A model generated the notes under the pieces. It did no database searches. It worked only from the letters and a program-made list of their open reading frames with translations, and was not told where the DNA came from. Positions 25,273 through 43,384 of a DNA stretch of 64,000 nucleotides are shown one piece after another. Numbering within the stretch: position 1 is the first letter of the stretch; each line of letters opens with the position of its first letter. The stretch covers positions 39,952 to 103,951 of the forward strand of contig JAFPWF010000006.1 of NCBI GenBank assembly GCA_017395085.1, in the 5' to 3' direction. This DNA is from Oscillospiraceae bacterium (GTDB taxonomy: Bacteria; Bacillota; Clostridia; Oscillospirales; Oscillospiraceae). A program made the position numbers and the translations under genes.

Positions 25273-25286
25273 AATGTCGGCCTCCC

Positions 25287-27284: not shown

Positions 27285-27631
27285 CCTCTCAGCCTCCTTA
27301 TCTCATGGGTGTCGGTTGTGCCGTACATCTCTTTGAGCTTGATGACCAGAGACAGGCTCATGGCCGTCACGCAGGCGCCGATAACGATGCTCGTCAGCGT
27401 TAGGGCCTGGGGAATCGGATCCACGAAGAAGCTGTCGGGATTCAGCTCGCCGAAGGTGAAGATCGGCGCCGTACCGCCGGGGTTGAAGCCGACCGTGATG
27501 ATCAGCAGGTTCACACCGTAATCCATGATGCTCAGGCCGATAACCGACTTCATCAGGTCATACTTCGTGACGATGCAGTAAAGGCCCAGAGTGATCAGGA
27601 AGAAGGAAGCAATGTAGTTCAGAAGAATCAT
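27281..27631 (-). CDS. MrpC/NuoK-like antiporter subunit (MbhG type)
   Basis: Small membrane protein of 116 residues with three hydrophobic helices, the NuoK/MrpC fold. Family marks are GLYCIVTKYDLMKSVIGL in helix 1-2 and DPIPQALTLTSIVIGA in helix 3, the latter being near-invariant in MrpC. A good GAGGCG site precedes the ATG. It overlaps both neighbours by four bases, so all three are coupled. In Mbh complexes the MrpC-like subunit is part of the Na+/H+ translocation module. Confidence 0.92.
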   Translation of the reverse strand: MILLNYIASFFLITLGLYCIVTKYDLMKSVIGLSIMDYGVNLLIITVGFNPGGTAPIFTFGELNPDSFFVDPIPQALTLTSIVIGACVTAMSLSLVIKLKEMYGTTDTHEIRRLRG

Positions 27632-28083
27632 TTCAGTTCGCCTCCTTGTCTGTCGGCGACGAGCGCCAGCATCATGAGCGTGATGGAGCCGATGCCCGTC
27701 ACGACCTTGAGGCCGACCGTCAGGTTCATCCAGAAGATGGTGCCGCTGGAGTACAGGTCGCCGATGTTGCCGTGGGTGTACAGAATGTTCTGGCAGAACT
27801 GCGCGCCGGCTGCAACGCCCATCAGGGCAAGCGCCACATAAATGACGGACGCAAGGCCTTCGGTTTCGTGCAGGAGGTTGAAGCTGATGGCCTTCGCCGT
27901 CACTTCATAGCCGTGCCCGAAGTACAGGAACAGCACCGCGGCCACAAACAGCACGCCGCCCTGGAAGCCGCCGCCCGGGCTCAGATGCCCGTGCAGAATG
28001 ATGTAGAGCATGAACACCAGGCTGAAAGGCAGGAGCGAATCGCCGCCGGAGCGGAGAATTACATCGTAGTTCTTAGTCTTCAT
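27628..28083 (-). CDS. MrpB-like antiporter subunit (MbhF type)
   Basis: Membrane protein of 151 residues with four hydrophobic helices and the MnhB-domain signature LHGHLSPGGGFQGGVLFVAA (about residues 30-50). This domain is specific to Mrp antiporters and to Mbh/Mbs-type complexes; it is absent from complex I and Ech. It therefore places this enzyme in the Mrp-linked group. It overlaps the next gene by four bases. Confidence 0.92.
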   Translation of the reverse strand: MKTKNYDVILRSGGDSLLPFSLVFMLYIILHGHLSPGGGFQGGVLFVAAVLFLYFGHGYEVTAKAISFNLLHETEGLASVIYVALALMGVAAGAQFCQNILYTHGNIGDLYSSGTIFWMNLTVGLKVVTGIGSITLMMLALVADRQGGELK

Positions 28084-28439
28084 TCGTTCCCGTCCTCCTT
28101 TCCGGATTCCTTTTTGGTAAAGAGGATGACTGCTGAGCCCGCTACCGCGGTAATCAGGATAAAGGCCTCGCCCATGGTATCATAGCCACGGAAGTCAAAC
28201 ACGACGGAGGTGACGTCGTTGACTGCGTGCGCTTCTGCCAGGTTCTCCTGCACAATGGCCGCCGCAGCGCCGTCCGCTTCACGGACATCGTAGCTTTCGG
28301 GGGTCTGCTGCAGGACCACAACAGGAACGGAGGCGTTCTTTCCGTCATAGGTGCGGGGCATCGCGGACATGCGGACCGCTGCGGTGAAGCATGCGAAGAG
28401 GATGACCGCGAGGGATACAAACGTCAGAAACTTCTTCAT
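28080..28439 (-). CDS. MbhE-like subunit (MrpA C-terminal-type membrane protein)
   Basis: A 119-residue protein with an N-terminal hydrophobic helix, an external middle part, and a second helix after the family mark VNDVTSVVFDFRGYDTMGEAFIL (about residues 75-97). This motif is the one seen in MbhE and in the C-terminus of MrpA, where it precedes the last helix. The N-terminal helix might be read as a signal peptide but is better taken as a membrane anchor. Coupled to both neighbours. Confidence 0.88.
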   Translation of the reverse strand: MKKFLTFVSLAVILFACFTAAVRMSAMPRTYDGKNASVPVVVLQQTPESYDVREADGAAAAIVQENLAEAHAVNDVTSVVFDFRGYDTMGEAFILITAVAGSAVILFTKKESGKEDGNE

Positions 28440-28690
28440 TTGTCATCGCCTCCCCGGATCTTTTTCAGAGCCACAATAAAGATCAGCGGGCTCAGAGCCG
28501 CACCGACCGCGGCTTCGGAGATGGCAACGTCCGGGGCATGCATGATCAGAAATGCCGCCGCCGCGAAGATGCCGGACACCGAGAGCGCAATAACGGCGCT
28601 CAGGAGCTTTTCAAAGTGGACCGCCAGAATGGCCGAAACCACCAGCCCCAGGATCACGAATACATCGAGGATGATCATCAGACTACTCAT
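28436..28690 (-). CDS. MbhD-like subunit (DUF4040 membrane protein)
   Basis: From the ATG at 28690, which follows GGGGAGGG, the protein has 84 residues and three hydrophobic helices. The motif HAPDVAISEAAVGAALSPLIFIVAL is the MrpA-like DUF4040 signature found in MbhD. A longer open frame up to 28765 adds residues out of character and lies inside the upstream mrpG-like gene, so it was rejected. The start overlaps that gene's stop by eight bases. Confidence 0.88.
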   Translation of the reverse strand: MSSLMIILDVFVILGLVVSAILAVHFEKLLSAVIALSVSGIFAAAAFLIMHAPDVAISEAAVGAALSPLIFIVALKKIRGGDDK

Positions 28691-29027
28691 CGAAATCCCT
28701 CCCCAGATCATCTGTTTCCATGGGCTTGTCCGGGCGGATGCCTGCCTTGTATGCGCCGCGCGCAAGAACGTGGGAGCCGATGGGGTTCGTAACCATAATC
28801 ATCAGGCCGATCACGCCAATCTTGATGGCAGCGGAAGCAGAGTGCATGGCGATTGCGGCATAGAGGATGCCGCCGATCACAACACCCAGCACGCCCAGGG
28901 TCGAGACGCAGGTCGAGGCCTGCATGCGGGAGAAGGTGTCGGGCATCTTGATGATGCCTTTCGTGCCGGCCAGTGCGAACACCAGGCTCACGAGGAAGAA
29001 CACATCACATACGATACGAAGTACCAT
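28683..29027 (-). CDS. MrpG-like antiporter subunit (MbhC type)
   Basis: Small membrane protein of 114 residues with three hydrophobic helices and the MnhG motif GIIKMPDTFSRMQASTCVSTLG (residues 24-45). The C-terminal 25 residues are polar and acidic. It forms part of the small-subunit set E-F-G of Mrp antiporters; in Mbh complexes the equivalents (MbhA, B, C) are at one end of the membrane arm. GAGGGGG precedes the ATG. Confidence 0.92.
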   Translation of the reverse strand: MVLRIVCDVFFLVSLVFALAGTKGIIKMPDTFSRMQASTCVSTLGVLGVVIGGILYAAIAMHSASAAIKIGVIGLMIMVTNPIGSHVLARGAYKAGIRPDKPMETDDLGRDFDE

Positions 29028-29029
29028 TG

Positions 29030-29296
29030 TTACAGCCCCCTCCCCTTCTCAAGATATCTGCCGACCAGAATCGTGTCGACAATGCCGAACAGCGCCGCCA
29101 GGAGTGCGATGTCCAGATAAACGCCTCTGCCGCTGTAGAGCGAGAAGAGAATCATCGCACAGCAGATCGTGTTGTCCATCGCGTCGCCGGCAACCATGCG
29201 GTCAGCAGCGTTCGGGCCTTTGGCAAGACGGTAGAGGTTCATGGCAGCCAACACGGCAAAGAAAATTGCGAAAAGCAGCAAGTCTGTCATTCCCAT
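29030..29296 (-). CDS. MrpF-like antiporter subunit (MbhB type)
   Basis: An 88-residue membrane protein with three helices and the MnhF signature LAKGPNAADRMVAGDAMDN (about 24-42), in which the GP-xxADR core is nearly invariant. It lies between the E- and G-type genes in the same order as in Mrp and Mbh operons. It overlaps the mrpE-like gene by ten bases and is two bases from the mrpG-like gene. Confidence 0.93.
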   Translation of the reverse strand: MGMTDLLLFAIFFAVLAAMNLYRLAKGPNAADRMVAGDAMDNTICCAMILFSLYSGRGVYLDIALLAALFGIVDTILVGRYLEKGRGL

Positions 29297-29814
29297 ACCC
29301 TCCTTAAACCTTTTTCCAGCGTGCCTTTGATCGCCTCTCCGGCCTTCTGAGGATCCGTCTCTTCCACATTGATCCAGTGGACATAGAGATAATTCCGCTG
29401 CTCATTGGGGTCTTCGGCCACTTCCATGGTGATGGTGCCCGGCGTCAGCGTAATGGAGTTGGATACCGCCGCAAGGCCGTAGTCCGACTTCATCGCCGTG
29501 GGAACCTTCACAATGCCGGGGTTGATGGCTTTGCAGCCGCCGAAGCAGATCTTCGCCATGTTGACGTTGGCTTTGATGAGCTCCACCGGGAATGTGAAGA
29601 GCCAGAAGCCCAGGCAGGCAAAGAACTTTGCGGGGTTGGCAAGCCAGCCAGCCTTCGCATGGATGAAGAAGCGCGCAGCAAACAGCGCAACCAGCAGGCT
29701 CACAACCGCTCCGACGATGAGTTCCTGTGCCGCGAAGGACCAGGTCAGCAGGATCCAGAAGGCATAGCAGACGACAAAGGTTGCCACTACGGCAGGTGTT
29801 TTTGTCTTTTGCAA
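29287..29814 (-). CDS. MrpE-like antiporter subunit (MbhA type)
   Basis: A 175-residue protein with two or three N-terminal hydrophobic helices and a soluble C-terminal domain; MnhE marks are SNSITLTPGTITMEV (about 117-131) and the YVHWINVEE strand. The start is a TTG codon following AAGGAAG; no ATG fits as well. It begins the Mrp-type block (E-F-G-D'-E'-B-C-D) that follows hypA. This block as a whole should give the hydrogenase a Na+/H+ exchange module. Confidence 0.9.
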   Translation of the reverse strand: MQKTKTPAVVATFVVCYAFWILLTWSFAAQELIVGAVVSLLVALFAARFFIHAKAGWLANPAKFFACLGFWLFTFPVELIKANVNMAKICFGGCKAINPGIVKVPTAMKSDYGLAAVSNSITLTPGTITMEVAEDPNEQRNYLYVHWINVEETDPQKAGEAIKGTLEKGLRRVWE

Positions 29815-29829
29815 GGTTACACTTCCTTC

Positions 29830-30171
29830 CTATTCAACTACAAGGTTTTCTACATAGAATTCTCTTCCGGCGATCATCCGTACCTGCGTGCCGCCGCATT
29901 GCGGGCAGCTGGCAGTGTGCTTCGGAAGCGGGCCGTGAAAGCCGCAGGCGGAGCACTCAAACTCTGCCGGGACCATCTGCATCACGAGCTTCGCGCCTTC
30001 CGCCGGCGTATCCTTTGCCACAAGAGGAAAGAACTCCTCAATGCAGCTCGGGATGATCCCGGAATACTCCCCGATCTTCAGGTCGATCTCCAGGACGCGG
30101 ACAAAGGCGTTTTTCTTCTGCTCGGACGAGACGATTTTGAGAATCCCTTCGGTCAGCGCCAGTTCGTGCAT
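29830..30171 (-). CDS. hypA: Hydrogenase nickel metallochaperone HypA
   Basis: HypA delivers nickel to the hydrogenase large subunit. The conserved N-terminal MHELAL has His2 as nickel ligand, and the zinc site is CSACG...CPQCGG (about 75-97). The length of 113 residues is normal. It is placed inside the structural operon, directly after the large-subunit stop (the ATG follows the TAA with no gap), so it is made together with its client. A hypB GTPase gene, its usual partner, is not in the window. Confidence 0.95.
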   Translation of the reverse strand: MHELALTEGILKIVSSEQKKNAFVRVLEIDLKIGEYSGIIPSCIEEFFPLVAKDTPAEGAKLVMQMVPAEFECSACGFHGPLPKHTASCPQCGGTQVRMIAGREFYVENLVVE

Positions 30172-31254
30172 TTAGCGGTCCAGGCAGCTGAAGCAGGGGT
30201 CGATGCTGGCGATAATCAGGCCGGCGTCCGCCACGGTGTTATTACGCAGCATGTGCGGTACCGTGGGGGTGTTCTTATAGCTCGGCACATGGATACTGAC
30301 GCGGTAGTTGTTGAAGCTTCCGTCGCCCGCCACCATGTAACTCAGCTGGCCGCGCGGCGCCTCATGCCGCTTGACGGTAACACCTTCCTTGATCTTCGGA
30401 AGCTTGGTACCCAGGTTGATGGGGCCTTCCGGCAGATTCTCGAGGGCCTGGCGGAGGATCTTGATGCTCTCGTAGCATTCCAGTGCACGCACCACCACAC
30501 GGGCGAAAACGTCGCAGCTGTCGACCACGGGAATGTCGAATTCGAAGTCGCCGTATGCGCTGTAGGGAGCGTCACGGCGGACGTCGATGTCCACCCCCGA
30601 CGCACGGGCATGGGGGCCGACCGCGCCGAGGCGGATCGCATCTTCGGTGGTCAGAACGCCGACGCCCTTGGTACGGAGCGCGACGGTCTTGTCGGTCAGG
30701 ACGATTTCGGTGATGCGGTCGAGCGGGCCTTTCAGTACGTCACAGGCTTCCAGAAGTCTGCGGCGCAGATCGTCGGAGATGTCGCGCCGGGCGCCGCCGA
30801 CCGTGCACATGGCGTAGTTGACGCGGTTGCCGGTGAGCTCTTCCAGCAGATCCATGACGAGTTCGCGCTCATCCCAGATGTGCATGAACATGCTGTCGTG
30901 GCCGATGATGTGGCAGGCAATACCGAACCACAGGAAGTGCGAGTGCAGGCGCTCAAGCTCAGCCGTGATGACACGGATGTAGTCGCCGCGTTTCGGCACT
31001 TCAAGACCGTTCAGTTCTTCCACTGCGAGAGCATACGTGAAGGCATGGGAGTGTGAGCAGATGCCGCAGACACGCTCGACCAGAACCAGAGTCTGAATGG
31101 CGTTGCGCTCGGTGGCAAGCTTCTCAATGCCGCGGTGGTTGTAACCGACGAACACTTCGGCGTCCTTGATGACTTCGCCCTCGGTAAAGAGCCTTGCATG
31201 AACAGGCTCCTCCAACGCGGGATGGTACGGACCGATCGGGATAATGTAGCTCAT
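30172..31254 (-). CDS. [NiFe] hydrogenase large (catalytic) subunit, group 4 / Mbh-Ech type
   Basis: Holds the NiFe(CN)2CO centre and makes H2 from protons with electrons passed by the small subunit. L1 is RVCGICSHSH with Cys63 and Cys66; L2 is DPCFSCLDR with Cys354 and Cys357. The 360-residue length and sequence fit the NuoD-like group 4 enzymes (EchE, MbhL, CooH). The protein stops at Arg360, right after L2, so it has no C-terminal tail for a maturation protease to remove. It overlaps the NuoC-like gene upstream by four bases and abuts hypA downstream. Confidence 0.94.
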   Translation of the reverse strand: MSYIIPIGPYHPALEEPVHARLFTEGEVIKDAEVFVGYNHRGIEKLATERNAIQTLVLVERVCGICSHSHAFTYALAVEELNGLEVPKRGDYIRVITAELERLHSHFLWFGIACHIIGHDSMFMHIWDERELVMDLLEELTGNRVNYAMCTVGGARRDISDDLRRRLLEACDVLKGPLDRITEIVLTDKTVALRTKGVGVLTTEDAIRLGAVGPHARASGVDIDVRRDAPYSAYGDFEFDIPVVDSCDVFARVVVRALECYESIKILRQALENLPEGPINLGTKLPKIKEGVTVKRHEAPRGQLSYMVAGDGSFNNYRVSIHVPSYKNTPTVPHMLRNNTVADAGLIIASIDPCFSCLDR

Positions 31255-31676
31255 GCTTTCACCTCCCCTTCCGCTGTCGCAGCGCCCACTGCATTCTTTT
31301 CAACCAGTTCCTTCAGGGGCGTTACCATGATTTGACCCTTGCCTTGCGTCTCGAGCATGTCCTCGGGCAGGAAGAGCCGCTTGGATACATCCAGGCCTTC
31401 GAACGTGATGCCGAACAGCTCGTTTACTTCACGCTCCGGCCAGGTTGCCGCCTCACAGTAGATCTCGCCGATGGAGGGGACAGTCGTCTCGCCGACCACA
31501 TGGTAGCTTTCCACGACCGGGTCGACGGCATACTCCCATGAAATATCCGGCTGCCCGTCTTTGTTGATCATGGCATGGATCATCACGAGATATCTGCCCT
31601 CCTTCCTCATTCTCTCTGCGAGGGGCAGGATTTCATCTTTTCCGATGTCAATCCTCTTGTACTCCTGCAAGTTCAT
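31251..31676 (-). CDS. Hydrogenase NuoC-like subunit (EchD/MbhK type)
   Basis: Peripheral 30-kDa-type subunit that packs against the large subunit in group 4 hydrogenases and complex I. The family motif is TWPEREVNELFGITFEG (about residues 76-92). The length of 141 residues is normal for EchD/MbhK. The ATG at 31676 is assumed; a GTG three bases upstream and a TTG two codons downstream are possible because GAGAGGTG lies very close. It is the first structural gene of the complex, 75 bases after hypE. Confidence 0.88.
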   Translation of the reverse strand: MNLQEYKRIDIGKDEILPLAERMRKEGRYLVMIHAMINKDGQPDISWEYAVDPVVESYHVVGETTVPSIGEIYCEAATWPEREVNELFGITFEGLDVSKRLFLPEDMLETQGKGQIMVTPLKELVEKNAVGAATAEGEVKA

Positions 31677-31750
31677 CACCTCTCAATATATATTGCTTAC
31701 AAAAGTAAATGTATGAGAACAGGGTTGCCCCTGGATTCTCCAAAATCACA

Positions 31751-32749
31751 TCAGCAGATGCGCGGAAGCTGCGCGCCTGCAAGCTTCTGCAGGATCCTTC
31801 TGCCGCCGAGTCCGGTGCGGAGCGCCACGCGACCATGTGCATCGTCGGTGACCCGGCCGATGAGGGCGGCATCCCGCCCTTCGGGGAACGCCCGCATGGT
31901 CTCCAGCAGAGCTTCCGCGTCTTCGGAAGCGCAGATGCAGATGAGTTTTCCCTCGTTGGCACAGTACATGGGATCCAGGCCCAGCATGTCGCAGGCTGCA
32001 CGGACTTCCGGCCTGACGGGCACGGCGCTTTCCTCGAGTTCAATGCCGAAGGAACGGCCTTCGGTAAACTCATTCAGTGTCGTCGCGAGACCGCCGCGCG
32101 TCGGGTCACGCAGGATGCGGATACCCGCGCCGGAGGAAAGCATAGCATCGGTCAGGCGGTTCAGCGCCGTACAGTCTGAGCGGAGTTCTCCATCCATCAT
32201 CCCGCTGCGCGCCAGCATCACGGCAGTGCCGTGATCGCCGACCGTACCGGACACCAGAACCGCATCGCCCGGCCGGACCGCAGCCAGCCCCGGCAGGCGG
32301 TATTTCCGGAAACCGATACCGGATGTATTGATGTAGAGCCCGTCGCCCCGGCCTTTTTCCACCACTTTCGTGTCGCCGGTAACAATCTGCACACCGGCGT
32401 CACTCGCCGCCCGGCGCATGGACTGCAGGACGCGTTCCAGGGTTTCAACCGGGAGACCCTCTTCCAGGATTAGGGCGCAACTCAAAAACTTCGGTTCCGC
32501 GCCGCACATGGCAACGTCGTTTACCGTGCCGCACACGGCCAGCTTGCCGATATCCCCGCCCGGAAAGAACAGCGGACTCACCACAAAACTGTCGGTAGAG
32601 AAAGCCAGTTCGTCCGCCCCGGGCAGCAGGGCGCCGTCACCAAGCTCGCTGAGTGCAGAATTATCAAACGCGGGTACGATGTACTGTTCAATCAGCCGCG
32701 AGGTCTTTTTCCCGCCGCTGCCGTAATCCAAAGTGATGATTTCTTCCAT
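31751..32749 (-). CDS. hypE: Hydrogenase maturation protein HypE
   Basis: HypE makes the cyanide ligands of the NiFe site by dehydrating a C-terminal Cys-thiocarboxamide produced with HypF. It belongs to the PurM/AIR synthase-like fold: DYGSGGKKTSRLI near the N-terminus, TGDTKVVEKG in the middle, DPTRGGLATTLNE near residue 210. The protein ends in ...GAQLPRIC, with the essential terminal Cys preserved. The length of 332 is normal. It follows hypD after two bases. Confidence 0.95.
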   Translation of the reverse strand: MEEIITLDYGSGGKKTSRLIEQYIVPAFDNSALSELGDGALLPGADELAFSTDSFVVSPLFFPGGDIGKLAVCGTVNDVAMCGAEPKFLSCALILEEGLPVETLERVLQSMRRAASDAGVQIVTGDTKVVEKGRGDGLYINTSGIGFRKYRLPGLAAVRPGDAVLVSGTVGDHGTAVMLARSGMMDGELRSDCTALNRLTDAMLSSGAGIRILRDPTRGGLATTLNEFTEGRSFGIELEESAVPVRPEVRAACDMLGLDPMYCANEGKLICICASEDAEALLETMRAFPEGRDAALIGRVTDDAHGRVALRTGLGGRRILQKLAGAQLPRIC

Positions 32750-32751
32750 AA

Positions 32752-33822
32752 CTATTCCTGGTATTTGTACGCCGCCGCGCAGGCGCCCTCGGAGGACACC
32801 ATGCAGGGTCCGATCGGATCCTCAGGCGTGCAGGCTTTGCCAAACAGAGGGCATCCCTGCGGCCGGAGCAGGCCGGTAATCACATCGCCGCAGCGGCAGC
32901 CGTTCTGAGGCGTAGCCGCCTTCGGCCGGATTGCAAAGCGCTTTGCGGCATCAAAGTCCGAGAGATCCGGCTTCAGGACAAAGCCGCTTTCCGGGATCTC
33001 CCCCAGGCCGCGCCAGCGGGCAGCGGAAAGTTCAAACGCGCTGTACAGCATCTGCTGCGCCAGCGGGTTTCCATCCGGTTTTACAGCACGGGGATAGGCA
33101 TTCTGAATTTCAGCTTTACCTGAACTGATCTGCTTCAGAAGCAGATACACCGCAAGCAGAACCTCTTCCGGTTCAAAGCCGCCGATGACGCCGGGCAGGC
33201 CGTACTCCTCCGACAGGAAGCGGAAGCCATTTTCCCCCGTCACTGTCGCCACATGGCCCGGACAGAGGAAGCCGTCGATTGCAAAATCTTCCATCGCGAG
33301 CAGCGCACGCAGGGCGGGCTCCACGGATTTTAGCATGGAGAGCAGCGTGAAGTTCTTCAGCCCGCGTTCCTTTGCCGCCAAAACCGCCGCGGCCGTGCCG
33401 GGTGCGGTAGTCTCAAACCCGATGCCGAGGAAGACCACCTGCTTCCCCGGTTCCTCTTCGGCAATGGCAAGGGCGTCCATCGGGGAATACACGATGCGGA
33501 CGTCAGCGCCCAGAGCGCGGCGCCGGAGCAGGCTGTCGCCCCTGCGGCTGCCGGGAACCCGAAGCATGTCGCCGTATCCGGTCAGGATGAGGTTCGGTTC
33601 CATGGCGAGCTCCAGTACGGCGTCGAGGTCTTCCTGTACTGTGACGCAGACAGGGCAGCCCGGCCCGGAAAGCAGGTGAATGTACGGGGGCAGCAGACTG
33701 CGGATGCCGGATTTGGCAATCGCCATCGTGTGGGTGCCGCAAACCTCCATAATCCTGGTCTCACCCAGAGGAAGCGCTGCTATGGCGTCCAGGAGTTTCC
33801 GGCTTTTCTCATCCGAGGGCAT
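32752..33822 (-). CDS. hypD: Hydrogenase maturation protein HypD
   Basis: HypD is the [4Fe-4S] scaffold on which Fe(CN)2CO is built together with HypC. Conserved Cys motifs are MEVCGTHTMAI (near residue 25), SGPGCPVC (near 55), FLCPGHVATVTG, and in the last third NGCRCGDVITG plus the CxxF/C cluster ligands around PLFGKACTPEDPIGPC. The ATG at 33822 follows GGGAGGAAC and gives 356 residues, the normal size; a 25-residue longer form overlapping hypC was rejected. It overlaps the end of hypC by 14 bases. Confidence 0.95.
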   Translation of the reverse strand: MPSDEKSRKLLDAIAALPLGETRIMEVCGTHTMAIAKSGIRSLLPPYIHLLSGPGCPVCVTVQEDLDAVLELAMEPNLILTGYGDMLRVPGSRRGDSLLRRRALGADVRIVYSPMDALAIAEEEPGKQVVFLGIGFETTAPGTAAAVLAAKERGLKNFTLLSMLKSVEPALRALLAMEDFAIDGFLCPGHVATVTGENGFRFLSEEYGLPGVIGGFEPEEVLLAVYLLLKQISSGKAEIQNAYPRAVKPDGNPLAQQMLYSAFELSAARWRGLGEIPESGFVLKPDLSDFDAAKRFAIRPKAATPQNGCRCGDVITGLLRPQGCPLFGKACTPEDPIGPCMVSSEGACAAAYKYQE

Positions 33823-34030
33823 GCTGCAGTTCCTCCCAGGCTTCCAGGTCGTCCTGAGCCTGTTCTTCCGGCAGGCGCTCGATGGCAAAGCCCGCATGCA
33901 CCATCACATAATCGCCGACCTTCGGGTCGGGAATAAAGTCAACACGAATGGGCCGGCGCATTCCCAGAGCTTCGCCGACCGCATCTTTTCCGTTTACTTC
34001 AATCAGTTTTAGAGGAACCGCCAGGCACAT
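33809..34030 (-). CDS. hypC: Hydrogenase maturation chaperone HypC
   Basis: Small chaperone (73 residues) that carries the Fe(CN)2CO unit from HypD to the large-subunit precursor. The essential N-terminal MCLAVPLKL with Cys2 is intact, and the beta-barrel motif GDYVMVHAGFAIERL is present. It is the first gene of the long operon hypC-hypD-hypE-NuoC-large-hypA-Mrp set-NuoL-NuoH-NuoB-NuoI, driven by the promoter at 34070-34098. Confidence 0.95.
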   Translation of the reverse strand: MCLAVPLKLIEVNGKDAVGEALGMRRPIRVDFIPDPKVGDYVMVHAGFAIERLPEEQAQDDLEAWEELQHALG

Positions 34031-34251: not shown

Positions 34252-34291
34252 GGTCCTCTGCAGCCGAAGCGTAAGCTCCCTGCAGAGGACC
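34252..34291. terminator. Inverted repeat downstream of cooS, putative terminator
   Basis: Twelve-base perfect arms (34252-34263 with 34280-34291) around a 16-base centre that itself can pair AGC with GCT. It lies 70 bases past the cooS stop codon. The minus-strand sequence after it is not T-rich, so termination there is uncertain. Confidence 0.5.
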
Positions 34292-34359: not shown

Positions 34360-36384
34360 TCAATCCCAGCCAAGCTCTTTCCGTTTCGCTTCGAAGTCGG
34401 AAACGATGCGGTTGCCCAGAATCTGAGGATCGGTGTTGACGATCATGACGCCGAGGCCCATCTTGCCGGTATCTTCCTTGAGGAAGCGGGTAACCTTCTC
34501 CGAACCGAAGGTCTGCGGCTCAACACAGTGATAGGAATTCAGGCCAAGCAGACGGAAGGCCAATGCCGCGCCGACTCCTTTTTCATTGGCCCATTCCGGA
34601 CTGGACTGGGCATAAGGCATCTCGCAAAGCTTCTTGCCGAGCAGACTGCAGGCGCCGACCAGGATGCCGGTGGAGCGGGTATTGTCCACGCACTCACCCA
34701 CATGCCACACCGGCGGCACATTATACTGCTTGCAGAAGGCCCTCAGACCCTCGCCACACTTGGCCTCCACGGCATCCATGTTGCAGAAGCCCAACTTCAG
34801 CAGCGGGAAAGAAGCACAGCCATTGGTGAGGATGAGGATATCGTTCTTCAGGAGGATATCCGCCACGTCGACAATACAACGCTCGTAGACCGTCTTCGGG
34901 TTGGTGCAGCCGACCAGATTGACAATACCGCGGATCTGGCCGCTCTTCAGGGCGTCCGCCAGGGGCTGGAAGGAGCCGCCCAGGTCCTTGGTCACGCTCT
35001 CGACACTGAAGCCCAGTTCGGCTTCGACCTCGTACGGCGGGATGAACTTGGGAATGCCCTTGCGCGCCTGATAGCTCTCAATGGCACGGTCCACAATCTT
35101 CCGGGCAATCTCGGTTGTTTCACCGATGTTGGAGTGGGTGTGGTCATAAGCGATGTGCTCGGCGCCGGGCAACTTGGTGGAATCCTCGGTGGTGACGACG
35201 GTGGTTTTGAAGCAGTTCGCCGCGTTCATGATGGACGGGTAGATGTCCTGCACGTCGGCAACCCAGAGATCCAGCGCGCCGGTGGACAGAACCAACTCTG
35301 CTCCGGGAGGATTGCACAGAGGAATCACGTTGTTGTAGCGGTACATGGCGGAAAGCCCCGTGCAGCAAATACCGTAGAACTGGATGCCGTCCGCACCGAC
35401 CGCTTTTGCCTTTTCAAGATATTCCTCGGACTGGCCGAGACGGACGATTTCGCTGACGAGGGTGGGCATGTGGCCGTGTACGGCGATGTTGACACTATTC
35501 TTTTTCAGCGCGCCGATGTTGACCATGGTCTTCCTGCGCTGGCCGACACCGAAGAGCGAGTCGGTCGCAATGTTGGTGTCAACAACCGTACCGAAGACGA
35601 ATGTCAGACCAGTGCGCAGGAACTGCTTCATGATGTTCTGCCAGTCACCGTCGGTGGCTTCGCCGGAGTTGTGCATGGACTCGAAGACTTCGTGATAGGT
35701 TGAAATGGGCATGATGTCCAGATCCTTCCAGACCTTCTGCCTCTCTGGCGGGGCGCCGTACTTGATGGTCTGGTACTCTTCGGTGGCCTCGGGGCGGGAG
35801 AGGTCAGCCAGCATCACGTTTGCAAAGTCGATGGCAACCTCGTTCACCGTGCGGCCTTCGGTCTGGATACCCCAGGCGGCGGCAGTGGCGAGCATCTTCT
35901 CCTCACCGAGAATGGGCAAAGGCAGTTTGCCTTCCGCGGCCCACTTCAGGGAGAGGATGACTTCACGCGCGTGCATGCCGTGCTGTGCCGTACCGGCGGC
36001 CACGGCGCGCAGCAGATTTCTGGCTACGATCAGATCGGCGTCTGCGCCGCAGACGCCGCGCGGGCTCTTCTTGGTGATGCGGCAGGGGCCCATGTGGCAG
36101 ATGCGGCAGCAAATGCCCGCCAGGCCGAAGTTGCACTGGGGCTGCTGTTTGTCAAAACGATCAAATGCATTGTCGATGCCCAACTGCTCCATGCGAAGGA
36201 GCATGGCCTTGACAGCGGGGTCCGGGGTTTCGTCGATCACTCTCTGCTTGTTGGGGAAGGTTTTGCGGTAGGCGTTTACCGCTTCGTTGTAGTCGGTGAT
36301 GTCGTTCACGTCATGGTGGTGATCATGGCAATGCTCGATGACGTTGCCGTGTTCATCCACGTGGGTATGCAGATGCTCGCTCAT
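34360..36384 (-). CDS. cooS: CooS-type carbon monoxide dehydrogenase homologue with altered C-cluster ligand
   Basis: Homologue of the Ni-Fe CODH catalytic subunit (CO + H2O to CO2 + 2e-), 674 residues. The D- and B-cluster cysteines lie in PQCNFGLAGICCRICHMGPCRI-like order with a further GVCGA. C-cluster residues found are the His of VAVHGHMP, Cys of GICCTG, GCTNPK, NGCASF and GECVDN. The position matching Cys333 of C. hydrogenoformans CODH-II (in DYQC) is Asp380 here (DVQD, codon GAC). The first 25 residues hold nine His and one Cys. It has its own promoter upstream of the hydrogenase operon. No cooC, cooF or cooJ is nearby, so activity on CO is unproven. Confidence 0.85.
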   Translation of the reverse strand: MSEHLHTHVDEHGNVIEHCHDHHHDVNDITDYNEAVNAYRKTFPNKQRVIDETPDPAVKAMLLRMEQLGIDNAFDRFDKQQPQCNFGLAGICCRICHMGPCRITKKSPRGVCGADADLIVARNLLRAVAAGTAQHGMHAREVILSLKWAAEGKLPLPILGEEKMLATAAAWGIQTEGRTVNEVAIDFANVMLADLSRPEATEEYQTIKYGAPPERQKVWKDLDIMPISTYHEVFESMHNSGEATDGDWQNIMKQFLRTGLTFVFGTVVDTNIATDSLFGVGQRRKTMVNIGALKKNSVNIAVHGHMPTLVSEIVRLGQSEEYLEKAKAVGADGIQFYGICCTGLSAMYRYNNVIPLCNPPGAELVLSTGALDLWVADVQDIYPSIMNAANCFKTTVVTTEDSTKLPGAEHIAYDHTHSNIGETTEIARKIVDRAIESYQARKGIPKFIPPYEVEAELGFSVESVTKDLGGSFQPLADALKSGQIRGIVNLVGCTNPKTVYERCIVDVADILLKNDILILTNGCASFPLLKLGFCNMDAVEAKCGEGLRAFCKQYNVPPVWHVGECVDNTRSTGILVGACSLLGKKLCEMPYAQSSPEWANEKGVGAALAFRLLGLNSYHCVEPQTFGSEKVTRFLKEDTGKMGLGVMIVNTDPQILGNRIVSDFEAKRKELGWD

Positions 36385-36425
36385 AGTTATCCCTCCGTTT
36401 TTTATAGTTTTGTTTGGTCGTATCC

Positions 36426-36454
36426 ATTATCGCATGCTCCGATCAGAGGGTCAA
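36426..36454 (-). promoter_or_regulatory. Probable sigma-A promoter of cooS
   Basis: On the minus strand TTGACC (36454-36449), 17-bp spacer, GATAAT (36431-36426), about 40 bases before the cooS ATG and its GGAGGG site. Confidence 0.7.
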
Positions 36455-36475
36455 ATTCGATCTGCGAATACAGTT

Positions 36476-36490
36476 ATCAGGAATACTGAT
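36476..36490. promoter_or_regulatory. Small palindrome between cooS and the TDT transporter gene
   Basis: ATCAG and CTGAT arms around GAATA. It lies just upstream of the cooS -35 box on one side and about 25 bases upstream of a TATACT (36514-36519) on the other side, so one regulator could act on both genes. No regulator family is assigned. Confidence 0.4.
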
Positions 36491-36541
36491 GTGCAATTCT
36501 ACGGTCAATCAGTTATACTCGGGATGGAGGTGATTGTTCCG

Positions 36542-37453
36542 ATGAAAGTGCTTCTGACGCGCCTTCCGGTTCCTGTCGGCTGTGTCGCGCTGGGGCTGAT
36601 CGGGCTTGCCGTGCTGCTTAGTGGATACAGTACTCTGTTCCTGTGGATATTCGGGCTGTGCTCTATCCTTCTGCAACTGCTGCTTGTATTGAAATGCTGC
36701 CTGCCCGGGCAACTGCGCACCGCATGCGGCGACTGCGTGACACTCAGCACCCTGGCCGGATACAGCATGGCGCTGATGCTGACCTCCGTCCAGCTGAAGA
36801 CCTTCCTCCCCTACGCCGCAGCCTTTGTTCTCTGGTGCTGCGGGCTTCTGCTGCATCTTATCATTATCGTTCTCTTCAGCCGGAAACTGCTGCGGGAGCG
36901 CCCGTCAGCATTTGCTGCAAGGGGCAGCTGGCTGCTGGTATATGTCGGTATTGCAGCCGCTTCCATTTCCGCGTCGGCATTCGGAGCGAATGCAATCGGC
37001 CGGATTCTGCTGATTCCCGCCGCGCTGGGTGCGCTGATTCTGGTTCCTCTGATCCTCCGGGCGGAACTCAAGAGCAGTGACATTCCCGTAGCACAGAAAC
37101 CCCTGTTCTGCATCATTGCAGCGCCTGTCAGCATCTGGATCTGCGGATACTTCGGTTCCGTCCCGGAATGCTCCAGAACTCTGGTAGCCGTACTGCTTCC
37201 GCTTTCCCAGCTGTTTTATCTGCTCGGCCTGTGGTGTTTGATCAAAACCTGCCGACAGCCATTTTCACCGGCGTTCGCAGCATTTACTTTTCCGTTTGTC
37301 ATCAGCGCCACCGCACTGAAGAAGTCCTGCGTCTTTCTCGGCTGCTCCGGGGCATTCCGGGTACTGATCCCTCTGGAAATCCTGATTGCCCTTGCAGGAT
37401 GCCTTTTTGCTTTTTTCGGGTACTTCCGGTTTCTGCTGATGAAACGCGCCTGA
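36542..37453 (+). CDS. TDT-family (TehA/SLAC1-like) membrane transporter
   Basis: Polytopic membrane protein, 303 residues with about ten hydrophobic helices, like the tellurite-resistance/dicarboxylate transporter family that includes TehA and the SLAC1 anion channel. The opening KVLLTRLPVPVGCVALGLIGLA is typical of the Firmicute branch. The ATG at 36542 has a near-perfect GGAGGTGA site eight bases away; upstream in-frame starts reaching into cooS were rejected. The transported ion cannot be told from sequence. It is divergent from cooS and ends at a bidirectional terminator. Confidence 0.82.
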   Translation: MKVLLTRLPVPVGCVALGLIGLAVLLSGYSTLFLWIFGLCSILLQLLLVLKCCLPGQLRTACGDCVTLSTLAGYSMALMLTSVQLKTFLPYAAAFVLWCCGLLLHLIIIVLFSRKLLRERPSAFAARGSWLLVYVGIAAASISASAFGANAIGRILLIPAALGALILVPLILRAELKSSDIPVAQKPLFCIIAAPVSIWICGYFGSVPECSRTLVAVLLPLSQLFYLLGLWCLIKTCRQPFSPAFAAFTFPFVISATALKKSCVFLGCSGAFRVLIPLEILIALAGCLFAFFGYFRFLLMKRA

Positions 37454-37533: not shown

Positions 37534-38481
37534 TTATGATCGGCCGCCCATATAGTTCAGGAAAGTGCGGATGAACCGTTCCTGGATGTCCGTCGGCTCT
37601 TCATCGCGCCGGAGAACCAGATAGAAGTCCCGGTGCTCCCACTGCGTCCTGAGCCGGTAATACAGCATTTTGGAGTCCGCCGGCACGGAGAAGTGCCCGA
37701 CTACCGTAGCGCCATAACCCCGCTCCGCCATCTCAAGTGCCATTGCCGGAGTGGATACCGTGAGTTTTGCCCTGGGCTTAAATTTGGATTCACTGAAGAT
37801 TTTCCTGGTCTGCTCATAGAATTCCGTTCCCTCTGAGAGTTCGACAAACGGTGTCCCGGAAAAAACAGAAATCGGCACCTGCAGGCACTGTCTGGACTTG
37901 TGTTTCCCAGCCACCACATCCTGCGCAGTAAGGGCAAAATCACTGAGCCGCTTGTTGACCGGTGCACCCGGAGGAACGGCAAGCAGATAATGGACCGCAA
38001 AAGCCGGAAGATAGGAAAAGTCCGTAAAATCGACTTCAGAAATGGTGTTGACTGCAATGTCGATTTTGTATTCCCGGAGGCACCTGTTCATCTCCTCGGG
38101 GAACTCGTTGATCACCAGAATTTCAGCTTCCGGTTCAATCTCCCGAAACCGGGAAAGCGCTTCCGGCATTACATAAATCGCATGCATCGGAGTGCAGCCG
38201 ATACGCAGCCTGGCATGCTCAGTCCCATTTGTTTTTTCCAGTTCGCTGAGAAGCGCTTTTTCCGAATCACGAACTCTCTCAATGTGCTGAATGAACAGCT
38301 CTCCCTGGGCAGTCAGCTGAAGCGGTTTTGTCTGCCGGTCAAAAATTTGGTATCCGAGCTCTTCCTCCGTCCGCTGAACCGCCATGCTGACAGCCGGCTG
38401 TGACGCATACAGGAATTTTGCCGCCTGTGAAAAGCTGCCGGTTTTGTACACTGCATAGGTGAATTCCAAATCTCTCTGCAT
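37534..38481 (-). CDS. LysR-family transcriptional regulator
   Basis: DNA-binding regulator of 315 residues. The N-terminal winged helix-turn-helix (residues 1-60) shows the LysR pattern GSFSQAAKFLYASQPAVSMAVQRTEEELG, followed by a linker helix and a two-lobe effector domain. It starts 12-16 bases after the hypF stop codon, so it is probably co-transcribed with hypF and the hydrolase gene. What it senses is unknown; the TDT gene converging on it or the hypF transcript could be targets. A GTG one codon upstream is an alternative start. Confidence 0.88.
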   Translation of the reverse strand: MQRDLEFTYAVYKTGSFSQAAKFLYASQPAVSMAVQRTEEELGYQIFDRQTKPLQLTAQGELFIQHIERVRDSEKALLSELEKTNGTEHARLRIGCTPMHAIYVMPEALSRFREIEPEAEILVINEFPEEMNRCLREYKIDIAVNTISEVDFTDFSYLPAFAVHYLLAVPPGAPVNKRLSDFALTAQDVVAGKHKSRQCLQVPISVFSGTPFVELSEGTEFYEQTRKIFSESKFKPRAKLTVSTPAMALEMAERGYGATVVGHFSVPADSKMLYYRLRTQWEHRDFYLVLRRDEEPTDIQERFIRTFLNYMGGRS

Positions 38482-38496
38482 CACGTTCCCCCTGCG

Positions 38497-40776
38497 CTAA
38501 AAGCGCTCCGATCGGTCGTTTTTCAGCCTTGCAGATGCTATCTTCAGTTGGCCGAGGCTCAGGCCTTCATCGTTACAGGAAACCCGCCTGTGGCAGAAGA
38601 CTTCCAATCCGGCCGCACGCAGGCGCTGCGGAAGGCGCTGCATGAAATAGATGTTCTGAAAACTGCCGCCGGAAAGGACAGTCTGCCGGATTCCGGTCTC
38701 TTTTGAGGCAGCCACCGCGATCTCCACCGCCATTTCAACCATGGTGTTCATGAACATGGATGCGAGAAGCGGAACCGGAACGCCGCTATCGCGCTGCCGG
38801 ATGAGCTCACGGATCATGGGGCGCCAGTCGAAACGTAGCAGCTTCGTATGCGGCGCTTCGGGCGCCGGCTCTTCACAGAATATCACTGGCAGACAGGCAT
38901 CGCTCTCTCCCGCTGCAGCTTCCAGCAGAATAGCCGCCTGACCTTCATAGCTGCAGGTTTCCCGAATGCCCAGGATGGCGGAAACGCCATCAAAGAGACG
39001 GCCCATGCCCGAAGACAAAGGGCAGTTGAACCCGGCAGAAAGCTGCTTTTCCAGAAGCGGAGCATTGGGAAGAGACTCCGTGCTGCATCCGGCTTCTTTC
39101 AGCAGAGAAAAAGCCACGCGGGCTGCCTCTTTCACAGCCCGGTCCCCGCCGATAAGCGGAATCGGCCGGATGCTGCCGAAGCGGGAAAAGCCGGAGTAAT
39201 CGCCAATCAGACACTCGGCGCCCCAGACAGTGCCGTCAGTACCGAGACCGGTGCCGTCCCAAACGAGCCCGATGCACGGCCCGGTAAGCCCGTTGTCCGC
39301 CATGCAGGCAGCCATATGGGCGTGATGGTGCTGCACCTGCAGCAGCGGGATGCTCTCTTTCTCCGCCCGCTCGGAAGCATAGGCCGTAGAAAGGTAGTCC
39401 GGATGCAGATCGCAGGCCAGCGCTTTCGGATGCACATCAAAGAGGCGTTCAAAGTACCGCACCTGCAGTTCATAGTGTTCAAGCGTTTCCAAATTCTTCA
39501 GGTCGCCGATATGCTGGCTGAGGAAAGCGTGTTCTCCTTTTCCGAGACAGAAGCTGGCCTTCTGCTCGGCCCCGCAGGCAAGGATCTGCGCGTGGAGCGG
39601 CAGCACCGTCACAGGCTGCGGTACATAGCCGCGGGAGCGCCGTGCAAAATACTCTTTGCCGCTCAGCACCCAGCAGAGGGAGTCGTCACAGCGTGTCTGG
39701 ATGAAGCGGTTATGCAGCAGGAATCCGTCCGCGATTCCCCGCAACTTTTCGACAGCCGCCTCATTGTCTTTCAGGATAGGCGTATCGGAAAGGTTTGCAC
39801 TGGTCATGACCAGCATATCAAAAGTGCCGTCAAAGAGAAGCACATGCAGGGGCGTATACGGCAGCATCACGCCCAGCCAGTTGTTTTCGCTGAGGTGCGT
39901 AAGCTCCGGGCGGGCATCCAGCTTTTTCTCCAGCAACACAATAGGCTTTCTGGCTCCGTTCAGGATGCGTGCTTCGTCCTCCGAAACCCGGCAGAAGCGC
40001 CGTGCGGCTTCCAGATTGCGGCACATGACGGCGAAGGGCTTCTCATCCCGCTGTTTGCGGCGGCGAAGTTCCCTGGTGATGGCAGGGTCGTCACTCCGGC
40101 AGGCCAGATGGAAACCTCCGAGGCCCTTGACGGCAACGATCTTCCCTTCCCGCAGAGCCTGTTGGGCAAGAGCAACCGGGTCGCCGGATGCCGGATTGCC
40201 GTCGGCATCCAGGAAATTCAGCGAAGGCCCGCAGACCGGACAGCAGTCCGGCTGGGCATGATAGCGTCGGTTTTCAATGTCGTGATACTCGCGGTCGCAG
40301 TCCGGGCACATGGGAAAAGCTTTCATGGAGGTCTTCGGCCGGTCATAGGGCACATCCTCGATGATGGTCAGCCGCGGGCCGCAGTTTGTGCAGTTGATGA
40401 AGGGATAGCGGTAACGCCGGTCCTTCGGGTCCAGCAGTTCCCGCAGGCAGTCCGGGCAGATGGCGATGTCCGGGGAAATAAGCGTGTTGCGTTCAGCCTG
40501 GCGCTCGCTCTGAATAATGGTAAAGTCCGTAAAACCCCGCGCAGGAATCCCGCGCCAGGAAATGTCTTCGATGACTGCTAAAGGAGGCGCTTCGCGGGGC
40601 AATTCCTCCAGGAAACGCCGGAGCTCCTCTCCGTCTCCCTCCAGTTCAACGGTGACGCCGGAGGAGGTGTTCCGGATATTGCCTTTCAGCCCATGCCGCC
40701 GCACCAGGCGGTGCATAAACGGGCGAAAGCCCACCCCCTGGACAATTCCTTTGATTTTTATCTCAATCGTCCGCAT
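38497..40776 (-). CDS. hypF: Carbamoyltransferase HypF (hydrogenase maturation)
   Basis: HypF turns carbamoyl phosphate into carbamoyl-AMP and passes the group to the C-terminal Cys of HypE, the source of CN ligands. Domains in order: acylphosphatase-like (KIKGIVQGVGFRPF, residues 8-21), two zinc fingers (CPDCLRE...CTNCG and CPDCDRE...CPVCG, about 107-185), a YrdC-like domain, and a Kae1-like C-terminal half with LQVQHHHAH and LSGGSFQN. The ATG at 40776 gives 759 residues, the normal size; upstream codons in the same frame lie inside the hydrolase gene. It overlaps that gene by 14 bases. It serves the [NiFe] enzyme encoded 7-18 kb away. Confidence 0.95.
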   Translation of the reverse strand: MRTIEIKIKGIVQGVGFRPFMHRLVRRHGLKGNIRNTSSGVTVELEGDGEELRRFLEELPREAPPLAVIEDISWRGIPARGFTDFTIIQSERQAERNTLISPDIAICPDCLRELLDPKDRRYRYPFINCTNCGPRLTIIEDVPYDRPKTSMKAFPMCPDCDREYHDIENRRYHAQPDCCPVCGPSLNFLDADGNPASGDPVALAQQALREGKIVAVKGLGGFHLACRSDDPAITRELRRRKQRDEKPFAVMCRNLEAARRFCRVSEDEARILNGARKPIVLLEKKLDARPELTHLSENNWLGVMLPYTPLHVLLFDGTFDMLVMTSANLSDTPILKDNEAAVEKLRGIADGFLLHNRFIQTRCDDSLCWVLSGKEYFARRSRGYVPQPVTVLPLHAQILACGAEQKASFCLGKGEHAFLSQHIGDLKNLETLEHYELQVRYFERLFDVHPKALACDLHPDYLSTAYASERAEKESIPLLQVQHHHAHMAACMADNGLTGPCIGLVWDGTGLGTDGTVWGAECLIGDYSGFSRFGSIRPIPLIGGDRAVKEAARVAFSLLKEAGCSTESLPNAPLLEKQLSAGFNCPLSSGMGRLFDGVSAILGIRETCSYEGQAAILLEAAAGESDACLPVIFCEEPAPEAPHTKLLRFDWRPMIRELIRQRDSGVPVPLLASMFMNTMVEMAVEIAVAASKETGIRQTVLSGGSFQNIYFMQRLPQRLRAAGLEVFCHRRVSCNDEGLSLGQLKIASARLKNDRSERF

Positions 40777-41542
40777 CGTAGAAAGCAATGGCAAGTTCCG
40801 CCACCCGGTCAGCCGTGCCGGGGTGATCGGACAGTGAATGCCCCTCGTTTTCAAAGAAGGAAATCGGAATCTGAAACTGCGCGGCAAATCGTTCCGCAGC
40901 CCGCGGGTCAATGACGGCGTCCTCCGCACCATGAGCCATTTTCACGGCTGTACCGCCGAATGCGGACGGATCAAAGGTCCGGAACAGGTCATTCATTTCA
41001 AAATCATGGTACATCTCCCGGGTGATGCGCACCGGCTTGCTGGTTTCAATATTCGCATCGAAGTAACCCTTTTCTTCCAGCGCTGCCAGGTTCTTTCGGT
41101 CCTGTTCCGTTGGGTTTTTCTTCACAAAAAGCTCCGGCATGTTGACCGCCGCGCTTCTGAAAAAAGCTTTTCGCCCAAGGTGCGGCCGCGTGCTGACGTA
41201 CAGTCCCGTCAGGTACGCGCCGAAGCTTGACGCAAAGTAAAACAAGGGCAGACCAAGGTATTGCCCGGCAGCGTACTGTTCCGCCGCTTCGATGCTGTTT
41301 TTGCCGCCTTCGATGCTCAGGGTTTCCTGCTGGGACTCTTCAAAACCGTGCCCGGGAAGATCAATCCCGATGACTCCGTATCCGGCCGCCGGCATTTTCC
41401 GGAACAGCGTCTGATAGGTCGCACATTCCTTGCTGCTGGAAAAACCGTGGATCGCAATTACGATTCCTCTGGGGTTTTCCGGGATTTCCTTCAGGCAGGA
41501 AATGATGTGCTGATCCGGCTTTGTTATTTTCAAGGATTCCAT
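40763..41542 (-). CDS. Alpha/beta hydrolase (lysophospholipase-like)
   Basis: Cytoplasmic alpha/beta-hydrolase of 259 residues. The oxyanion loop is HGFSSSKE (about 32-39). The nucleophile elbow is FASSFGAY, with the first small residue replaced (A-S-S-F-G instead of G-x-S-x-G). The acid is probably Asp in GAEDAVIDP, and the base His in NEGHSLSDHPG. The substrate is unknown. The gene leads a short run with hypF and lysR, overlapping hypF by 14 bases; a functional link to hydrogenase maturation is not evident. Confidence 0.82.
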   Translation of the reverse strand: MESLKITKPDQHIISCLKEIPENPRGIVIAIHGFSSSKECATYQTLFRKMPAAGYGVIGIDLPGHGFEESQQETLSIEGGKNSIEAAEQYAAGQYLGLPLFYFASSFGAYLTGLYVSTRPHLGRKAFFRSAAVNMPELFVKKNPTEQDRKNLAALEEKGYFDANIETSKPVRITREMYHDFEMNDLFRTFDPSAFGGTAVKMAHGAEDAVIDPRAAERFAAQFQIPISFFENEGHSLSDHPGTADRVAELAIAFYDADD

Positions 41543-41689: not shown

Positions 41690-43381
41690 TTAATGATGAC
41701 CGTGCAGTGGGTAGTGGATGTGCAGAAGATCGTGGGCACGGCCCTTCAAAAGCTCGTCGTAGACATAGTCCAGCGCCGGGTTCTGCTGCGGAATCTTGAG
41801 CTCGCACGCTTCATCCGCCTTGAAGATGGCTTCCACACGCTCTCTCTTGCGTGCGTTGGAGGCGGGCGGCTGGCCGCCGCCGCCGATGCAGCCGTTCGGG
41901 CAGGCCATGACTTCGATGAAGTCAAAGTACTCCTCGCCGCTTTCGACCTTCTCAATCAGTTTGTCGGCGTTGCCGAGACCGTTCGCCACGGCAATCTTGA
42001 TGGTGAGGTCGCCCGCCGTGACGCTGAAGGCTTTGATCCCGTCCAGACCGCGCACGCCGCACTCGGCAATTGTCTTCAGGGTGTCCGGCGATGCGCTGTC
42101 CAGCACGCGGCGGATGACTGCTTCGGTCACGCCGCCCGTGACGCCGAAGATGACTCCGGCGCCGGTGTAGTCGCCGAGAGGGCTGTCGGGCTCGGAATCG
42201 GGCAGGTTCTTAAAGTCGATGCCGGCCGCTTTAATGAGCTTGCCGAGCTCATCGGTGGTCAGGACCAGGTCTATGAGGCGCTTGCCGTCCTTTTCAAGTT
42301 CAGGACGTTTGGCTTCGAACTTCTTCGCCGTGCAGGGCATGATGGCAACAGAGTAGACATCCTCATCCGCAAACTGCTGGCGGATCAGCGCACCGAACAT
42401 TTCCATTGGGCTTCCGCAGGTGGAAACCTGGGGCATCAGATTCGGGTGCGCCTTCTCGACATGCTGGATCCATCCCGGGCAGCAGGAGGTGAACATTGGA
42501 AGCTTCGCGCCGGACTTGACTTTCTCCAGAAACTCGGCGCTCTCTTCCATGATTGTAAGGTCGGCGGTGAGGTTGGTGTCGTAAACCACGTCGAAGCCCA
42601 GCCTTCTGAGCGCGGTGACCAGCTTGCCGGTAACAGGCTCATCGGCTGGCATGCCGAACTGCTCCGCCAGGCCGACACGGACGCTGGGTGCGTACTGAAC
42701 CACAACCCGTTTGTTCGGGTCATTCAACATATCCCACATTTCGGGGATCTGGCGGTTGATGGTGATGGCGCCGGTGGGGCAGACCGCCGCGCACTGCCCG
42801 CAGCCGACGCAGCCGGTTTCACTGAGCATCTTGCCGAAGCCCGGGGCGACAACCGCTCTCTTGCCGCGCTTGGTGAAATCAATGGCGCCGATATTCTGGA
42901 CTTCCGCGCACATGCGGACGCAGAGGCCGCACAGAATGCACTTGGAGGGATCCCGGGTAATGCAGGGGGAGGAGACATCCAGCGGAAGCCTGGCATAGGT
43001 GTTTTCCGTAAAGCGCGGTTCCACCACATTATAGCGGTGGGCATACTCCTGCAGTTTGCAGCTGCCGCTCTGGTCGCAGGTCAGGCACTCCGCACGGTGG
43101 CTGCTCATCAGGAGCTGCAGCGTAGTATGGCGGCTCTCCAGAACCTTCTTGGTGTGGGTGTTGACAATCATGCCGTTGCGGGGCTGCATGGAGCAGGCCG
43201 CATCCATCGCGCCACGGTCGTTTTCCACCAGGCAGAGACGGCAGCCGCCGTAGATTGAAAGGTTCTCACAGTAGCACAGGGAAGGAATGTCAATCCCGTT
43301 GTTCCGGGCAACTTCGAGAACGTTGCGCTCATTGGTAAAGGGACACTCGATCCCGTCGATGATCATTTTCTTCTCAGCCAT
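41690..43381 (-). CDS. hydA: [FeFe] hydrogenase catalytic subunit (bifurcating type)
   Basis: Cytoplasmic H-cluster enzyme, 563 residues. N-terminal [2Fe-2S] domain (Cys around 36-50), a His-Cys3 [4Fe-4S] site (HRAECLTCDQSGSCKLQ), two ferredoxin clusters (CILCGLCVRMC and CVGCGQCAAVC), then the H domain with L1 TSCCPGW, L2 MPCTAKKFE and L3 EVMACPNGCIGGGGQP. All H-cluster cysteines are present, including the proton-transfer Cys. With HydB and HydC it should couple ferredoxin and NAD(H) to H2. The C-terminus (LLHIHYPLHGHH) is His-rich. It is the last gene of the operon. HydEFG maturases are not in the window. Confidence 0.95.
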   Translation of the reverse strand: MAEKKMIIDGIECPFTNERNVLEVARNNGIDIPSLCYCENLSIYGGCRLCLVENDRGAMDAACSMQPRNGMIVNTHTKKVLESRHTTLQLLMSSHRAECLTCDQSGSCKLQEYAHRYNVVEPRFTENTYARLPLDVSSPCITRDPSKCILCGLCVRMCAEVQNIGAIDFTKRGKRAVVAPGFGKMLSETGCVGCGQCAAVCPTGAITINRQIPEMWDMLNDPNKRVVVQYAPSVRVGLAEQFGMPADEPVTGKLVTALRRLGFDVVYDTNLTADLTIMEESAEFLEKVKSGAKLPMFTSCCPGWIQHVEKAHPNLMPQVSTCGSPMEMFGALIRQQFADEDVYSVAIMPCTAKKFEAKRPELEKDGKRLIDLVLTTDELGKLIKAAGIDFKNLPDSEPDSPLGDYTGAGVIFGVTGGVTEAVIRRVLDSASPDTLKTIAECGVRGLDGIKAFSVTAGDLTIKIAVANGLGNADKLIEKVESGEEYFDFIEVMACPNGCIGGGGQPPASNARKRERVEAIFKADEACELKIPQQNPALDYVYDELLKGRAHDLLHIHYPLHGHH

Positions 43382-43384
43382 GAC

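Follow-up and report, generated by a model that had tools for sequence, protein, structure and literature searches.

The product of the cooS homologue analysed here carries an aspartate, Asp380, where CODH-II of C. hydrogenoformans has the C-cluster ligand Cys333, and this ligand swap is real and clade-wide. The gene lies in a 64,000-nucleotide stretch of an Oscillospiraceae genome (contig JAFPWF010000006.1), referred to as the window. CODHs are nickel enzymes that convert CO to CO2 and back. An acid occupied the 333 column in 58/58 rows of the branch to which the window protein belongs (55 Asp, 3 Glu), and a cysteine did so in all 57 other CODHs of our set. A sequence-only reading had drawn attention to the residue and supposed that the cluster may differ from the usual one; a ligand change found throughout one clade is in line with such a difference.

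An acid replaces a C-cluster cysteine throughout one clade

The features on which the analysis centres are the following:

34360..36384, minus strand: cooS homologue of 674 aa with the residue signature of clade B; frame open and full-length
36313..36384, minus strand: N-terminal His-rich stretch of the cooS product, 9 His in the first 24 residues; a group B-1 hallmark according to the available part of PMC6344411
35245..35247, minus strand: Asp380 codon (GAC), aligned with the C-cluster ligand Cys333 of C. hydrogenoformans CODH-II
34693..34695, minus strand: Glu564 codon, replacing Ser525 of CODH-II; adjoins Cys565 (the Cys526 equivalent) and is co-fixed with the acid at 380
36401..37453, plus strand: SLAC1/TehA-type membrane protein, divergent neighbour of cooS (PF03595, 37.6 bits, cut-off 27.9); start codon uncertain
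37534..38484, minus strand: LysR-type regulator, upstream of cooS

The cooS product passed the NCBIfam model for anaerobic CODHs (TIGR01702; 519 bits, cut-off 478) as well as Pfam Prismane. The codon, read from 35247 to 35245, encodes residue 380, and an alignment of 95 rows that included CODH-II placed Asp380 at Cys333, as the sequence-only reading had it. The same alignment bore out its statement that the remaining C-cluster ligands and all B- and D-cluster cysteines are present: the window protein has His305 (His261 in CODH-II), Cys341 (Cys295), Cys493 (Cys446), Cys523 (Cys476) and Cys565 (Cys526), six B/D-cluster cysteines, a type II D-cluster (Cys84-X7-Cys92-Cys93) and the acid-base pair His135 (His93) and Lys602 (Lys563). 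The canonical C-cluster set of clades E and F, five cysteines and one histidine, is thus incomplete in the window protein, its second cysteine being Asp. No other cysteine had shifted into the ligand position, and the surrounding motif reads ADVQDIYPSIM in the window, L003 and L005 and ADVQDIYPAIM in L004. Since these relatives (96% identity for L003, 94% for L005 and 81% for L004) share the Asp and no cysteine is displaced, a sequencing error or misalignment is very unlikely.

The first 95 rows comprised 38 with an acid, the window included (35 Asp, 3 Glu), and 57 with Cys. Another 20 loci, selected by similarity to the window protein and added after the pattern had been noticed, all had the acid (20/20). 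Duplicates of the window or of longer loci, frames shorter than 540 aa and frames without a clear CODH-II match, HCPs among them, were removed before counting. In a quick tree that retained the 333 column itself, the 38 acid rows formed one clade (SH-aLRT 100), with three Cys333 rows, termed B-4-like here, as its sister (support 99, a grouping flagged as long branches meeting) and all other CODHs outside. The three Glu rows formed one subclade, so what is conserved is the charge, beyond the residue alone. His93, Lys563, His261, Cys295 and Cys526 were kept in every readable acid row, the His93 position being unreadable in 2 of the 20 later ones.

The acid at 333 is accompanied by a second one. 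Glu filled the 525 column in 58/58 acid rows and in 0/57 others, where T, S, P, G or A was found. When we scanned for residues that were fixed in the 38 acid rows of the first set and differed from 19 clade E/F-type rows, 16 positions emerged, and 11 of them are no more than 8 residues away from a cluster ligand or an acid-base residue (p = 5.6e-5). Among the readable acid rows, the 567 column was Ala and the 561 column Asn in 57/57. CODH-II (clade F) belongs to the same family and has the same acid-base residues and otherwise the same cluster ligands; the window protein has Asp380, Glu564 and Ala606 in place of its Cys333, Ser525 and Ile567. Of these CODH-II residues, Cys333 binds a cubane iron and Ile567 lines the site, where nickel is bound by Cys526. 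We found no mention of residue 525 in the available text of CODH papers, figures and supplements aside.

Clade B and its transporter partners

As far as the available text of Inoue et al. 2019 (PMC6344411) describes them, clade B enzymes fall into group B-1, with Asp or Glu and a His-rich N-terminus, groups B-2 and B-3 with Asp, and group B-4 with Cys. By this published residue signature the window protein is of the B-1 type within clade B; the assignment is based on the signature, as our tree contains no named clade B reference. Compared by description with group B-1 (representative WP_026514536), it shares the Asp/Glu at the second C-cluster cysteine and the type II D-cluster, and also the His-rich N-terminus and the His/Lys acid-base pair (PMC6344411, available part). 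It differs in having no NitT/TauT ABC genes directly beside cooS, where SLAC1-type and LysR genes are found instead. The three B-4-like loci (L052, L097 and L098; labelled by signature only) group as sister to the acid clade, with the long-branch reservation given above, and have the same ABC genes, and differ in having Cys at 333 and Gly at 525; a cysteine synthase gene lies directly upstream of their cooS.

The swap itself is already in print in the part of PMC6344411 available to us, and is therefore an ordinary finding for a CODH specialist. The same source had already reported the association of clade B with NitT/TauT ABC genes. According to the accessible text of a 2026 eLife survey (PMC13056359), ABC genes occur in 64% of clade B operons, 24% have no neighbour, and the function of the clade could not be deduced, biochemical characterisation being awaited. 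Clade B genes are nonetheless counted as putative CO dehydrogenases, though by that survey no member has been characterised; in a human-gut survey, they made up 493 of 1,380 such genes (PMC11338639, as far as available). In the CODH literature, to the extent that its text was accessible, we found neither the cluster composition nor an activity of any clade B protein, nor an earlier report of the two-acid pairing, the one-to-one transporter or its replacement by SLAC1.

The ABC binding protein was present at 38/58 acid loci and 3/3 B-4-like loci, compared with 0/9 clade E/F-type loci and 0/40 other stretches of these genomes (16 kb each, two from each of 20 genomes, at arbitrarily picked places). 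Across 392 genomes of the class, it was found in 24 (E <= 1e-40), in each case clustered with a cooS gene of this group or with what remains of one: 22 had an intact acid-type gene, one (G331) a B-4-like gene and one (G231) a remnant whose fragment retains the GEC motif. Eight incomplete CODH matches were inspected before genomes were grouped; two (G231 and G373) were acid-type remnants and six were other CODH types. With these assignments, the binding protein occurred in 24/27 genomes with a group cooS or remnant and in 0/365 others (p = 2e-35). The three cooS genomes without it were that of the window, one with a SLAC1-type gene (G459) and the one with the broken acid-type remnant G373. In that last genome (locus L176, 1291-2472, on G373:C82), the frame of an ABC ATPase is joined to the middle part of an acid-type cooS, beyond which the sequence is unrelated.

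In the window, a search of 8-10 kb to each side of cooS did not find the NitT/TauT ABC partner. Among 99 related genomes, a SLAC1 homologue was present in 3/3 with an acid-type cooS and in 0/96 others, and a SLAC1-family gene lay beside cooS at 7/58 acid loci by clustering (6 by a stricter search). Neither an ABC nor a SLAC1 gene was seen in the stretch fetched for 13/58 acid loci, some of which are on short contigs. The LysR cluster touched 10/58 acid loci, not always adjoining cooS, and LysR is a large family. Taken together, the fixed two-acid signature and the dedicated transporter argue against reading clade B genes alone as evidence of CO use.

Two further observations concern transporters. 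Compared with the window (34360-37453), the genomes G010 and G028 have a cooS that is 94-97% identical and a SLAC1-type neighbour that is only 52% identical. A second NitT/TauT-like ABC set lies ∼10 kb from the window cooS (46419-48974, plus strand) and consists of a binding protein, a permease and an ATPase, the latter named by eye; its binding protein scored 51.7 bits to SsuA_fam and belongs to a subfamily other than that of the usual cooS partner.

A candidate redox enzyme and the alternatives

Some ferredoxins and the dark-operative protochlorophyllide reductase have [4Fe-4S] clusters with an Asp ligand, which alters the potential or the lability of the metal. The reading that we prefer, and to which we give an even chance, is that the window protein would be a transporter-coupled redox enzyme with a carboxylate-ligated Ni-Fe cluster, and would not serve CO oxidation in a CO-dependent energy pathway or the Wood-Ljungdahl pathway. 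The carboxylate at 380 would take the place of Cys333 of CODH-II as an iron ligand. One iron of the cubane would then be coordinated by oxygen, and the nickel and pendant-iron sites of this Ni-Fe-S cluster would be as in CODH-II. The enzyme would be wired through its B and D clusters, and its substrate, probably a small molecule or an anion, would be one that the transporter handles. The transporter would be a NitT/TauT-type ABC importer in most hosts and a SLAC1-type channel in the lineage of the window. We infer iron ligation by Asp380, the presence of nickel and redox turnover of a transported small molecule. The CODH-II variants C295A and C295E were without nickel and did not oxidise CO (PMC9311411, available part), so that the changed ligand may cost the window protein its metal too. 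In the host genome (2.52 Mb in 86 contigs, 84.5% complete), we found no match to CdhC. The structure of the cluster and the ligand of the binding protein offer two handles on function.

A different assignment, which we regard as unlikely though worth serious attention, is a Ni-CODH that still oxidises CO or reduces CO2 despite its altered ligand, the ABC transporter and the His-rich tail serving to supply nickel, as Inoue et al. 2019 would have it. The rest of the ligands and both acid-base residues are indeed kept, and the N-terminus is rich in His. The binding protein can be read either way. Inoue et al. relate it to a metal-binding protein of solved structure, 3UN6 (PMC6344411, available part), which was also its best match by phmmer (222.8 bits), in favour of metal supply. 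Against it, the profile match was SsuA-like (TIGR01728, 155 bits, just below the cut-off of 163.5), a family named for sulfonate import. SLAC1 and SsuA are both families of anion carriers, and a gene of the anion-channel family stands in the place of the binding protein in the window's lineage, which further argues against nickel supply.

The accessory genes bear on the same question. A CooC-like ATPase gene adjoined cooS at only 2/58 acid loci (named by eye, the best profiles being MinD-type), which weakens the case for nickel, yet hypD, hypE and hypF lie near the window cooS. The rows of the two loci concerned, L094 and L096, diverge earliest among the acid rows of the 95-row tree, and this early presence favours an enzyme that still works as a CODH. 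The host has a distant CooC-like ATPase (31% identity) on a contig other than that of cooS; the gene next to it resembles a 2-hydroxyacyl-CoA dehydratase-type protein by eye and gave no profile match. A CooF-like cluster was found at 6/9 clade E/F-type control loci and 0/58 acid loci, a difference that speaks against CO oxidation; it was also present at 1/3 B-4-like loci.

It is improbable, in our estimate, that the protein is CODH-V-like or HCP-like, with an Fe/S/O hybrid cluster that lacks nickel and reduces hydroxylamine or NO. A parallel to CODH-V had been suggested by the sequence-only reading, and the two do share the CODH scaffold, in the same Prismane family, and the replacement of one cluster cysteine by a carboxylate. 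The parallel breaks down at the level of the ligands. In CODH-V of C. hydrogenoformans (CooS-V; group D-1, 7b7q), by the available part of PMC9311411, only Cys295 of the six cluster ligands is replaced, by Glu, and Glu556 additionally coordinates an iron. In line with this, a Glu295 relative aligned by sequence with the 7b7q chain had Cys at the 333 position, and the Glu295 rows of our set had Tyr at 93. Clade B shows the reverse arrangement and keeps His93: the window protein has Cys341, not Glu, at the 295 position, and Asp380, His135 and Asn600 where the D-1 type has Cys333, Tyr93 and Glu556 (aligned here with the 561 column of CODH-II), with Asn at this last column in 57/57 readable acid rows. 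Moreover, the host already has an HCP-like protein, which together with the cooS product makes up its only two Prismane-family proteins and whose gene is preceded by a ferredoxin-like gene. On ligand grounds, we set a CODH-V- or HCP-like cluster aside as first choice.

Decay of the enzyme, with loss of its cluster or of its activity, as the broken remnants in two genomes of the class (G231 and G373) and a match in only 6/99 related genomes (acid type in 3 of the 6) might suggest, is very improbable, given an acid that is invariant in 58/58 rows, including 20/20 of the later set, and an open, full-length frame in the window.

Sulfur genes and other neighbours of cooS

Genes of sulfur metabolism recur near cooS, which we regard as a lead, not as proof. 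Cysteine synthase, cystathionine gamma-synthase-type, MalY-type or LarE genes were found at 19/61 acid or B-4-like loci and in 0/40 of the comparison stretches (p = 2e-5, an optimistic value because the families were selected after the first loci had been inspected, with related species counted separately). CysK and LarE were named by profile, the rest by eye. Among the later loci, 4/20 had such genes, all in one host family (p = 0.01). Besides the B-4-like loci, L090 and L091 have a cysteine synthase gene directly upstream of cooS. In the CODH literature, as far as its text was available, we found no statement of a sulfur link beyond a cysteine synthase context reported mainly for Megasphaera (PMC11338639).

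These genes allow the preferred reading, a transporter-coupled redox enzyme, to be extended, albeit tentatively and with rather less than an even chance. Those clade B CooS proteins that have an acid at 333 might be a class of Ni-Fe-S redox enzymes in their own right and not CO dehydrogenases. A carboxylate would ligate their cluster, a paired Glu would lie next to the nickel ligand, and the substrate would be a small imported anion, which may bear sulfur so that the product feeds cysteine synthesis. Carbonyl sulfide can be acted on by CODHs. A role as a substitute for sulfite reductase was also considered and is unsupported, as NIR_SIR (PF01077) was commoner in genomes with an acid-type cooS (24/35) than in controls (14/31; two-sided p = 0.08), the wrong direction for a substitute; the three B-4-like genomes, two of them positive, were in neither group.

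The window also holds hydrogenase-related genes on the minus strand. Downstream of cooS (24253-33897) are antiporter-like genes, NiFe-hydrogenase-like NuoC/NuoD genes and genes for a HypA-like protein, HypE and HypD (antiporter and HypA by eye). HypF is encoded upstream (38497-40932), and a NuoF-like gene (by eye) and an [FeFe] hydrogenase near group A6 (689 bits, cut-off 765) follow at 41690-45271. A CODH/hydrogenase unit formed with the NiFe-hydrogenase-like and Hyp genes found no support, as the relatives L004 and L086 have other genes beside cooS and an inverted repeat separates cooS from hypD in the window. This repeat, just after cooS (34252-34291), is perfect over 12 bp and has a 16-nt loop with no clear T-run.
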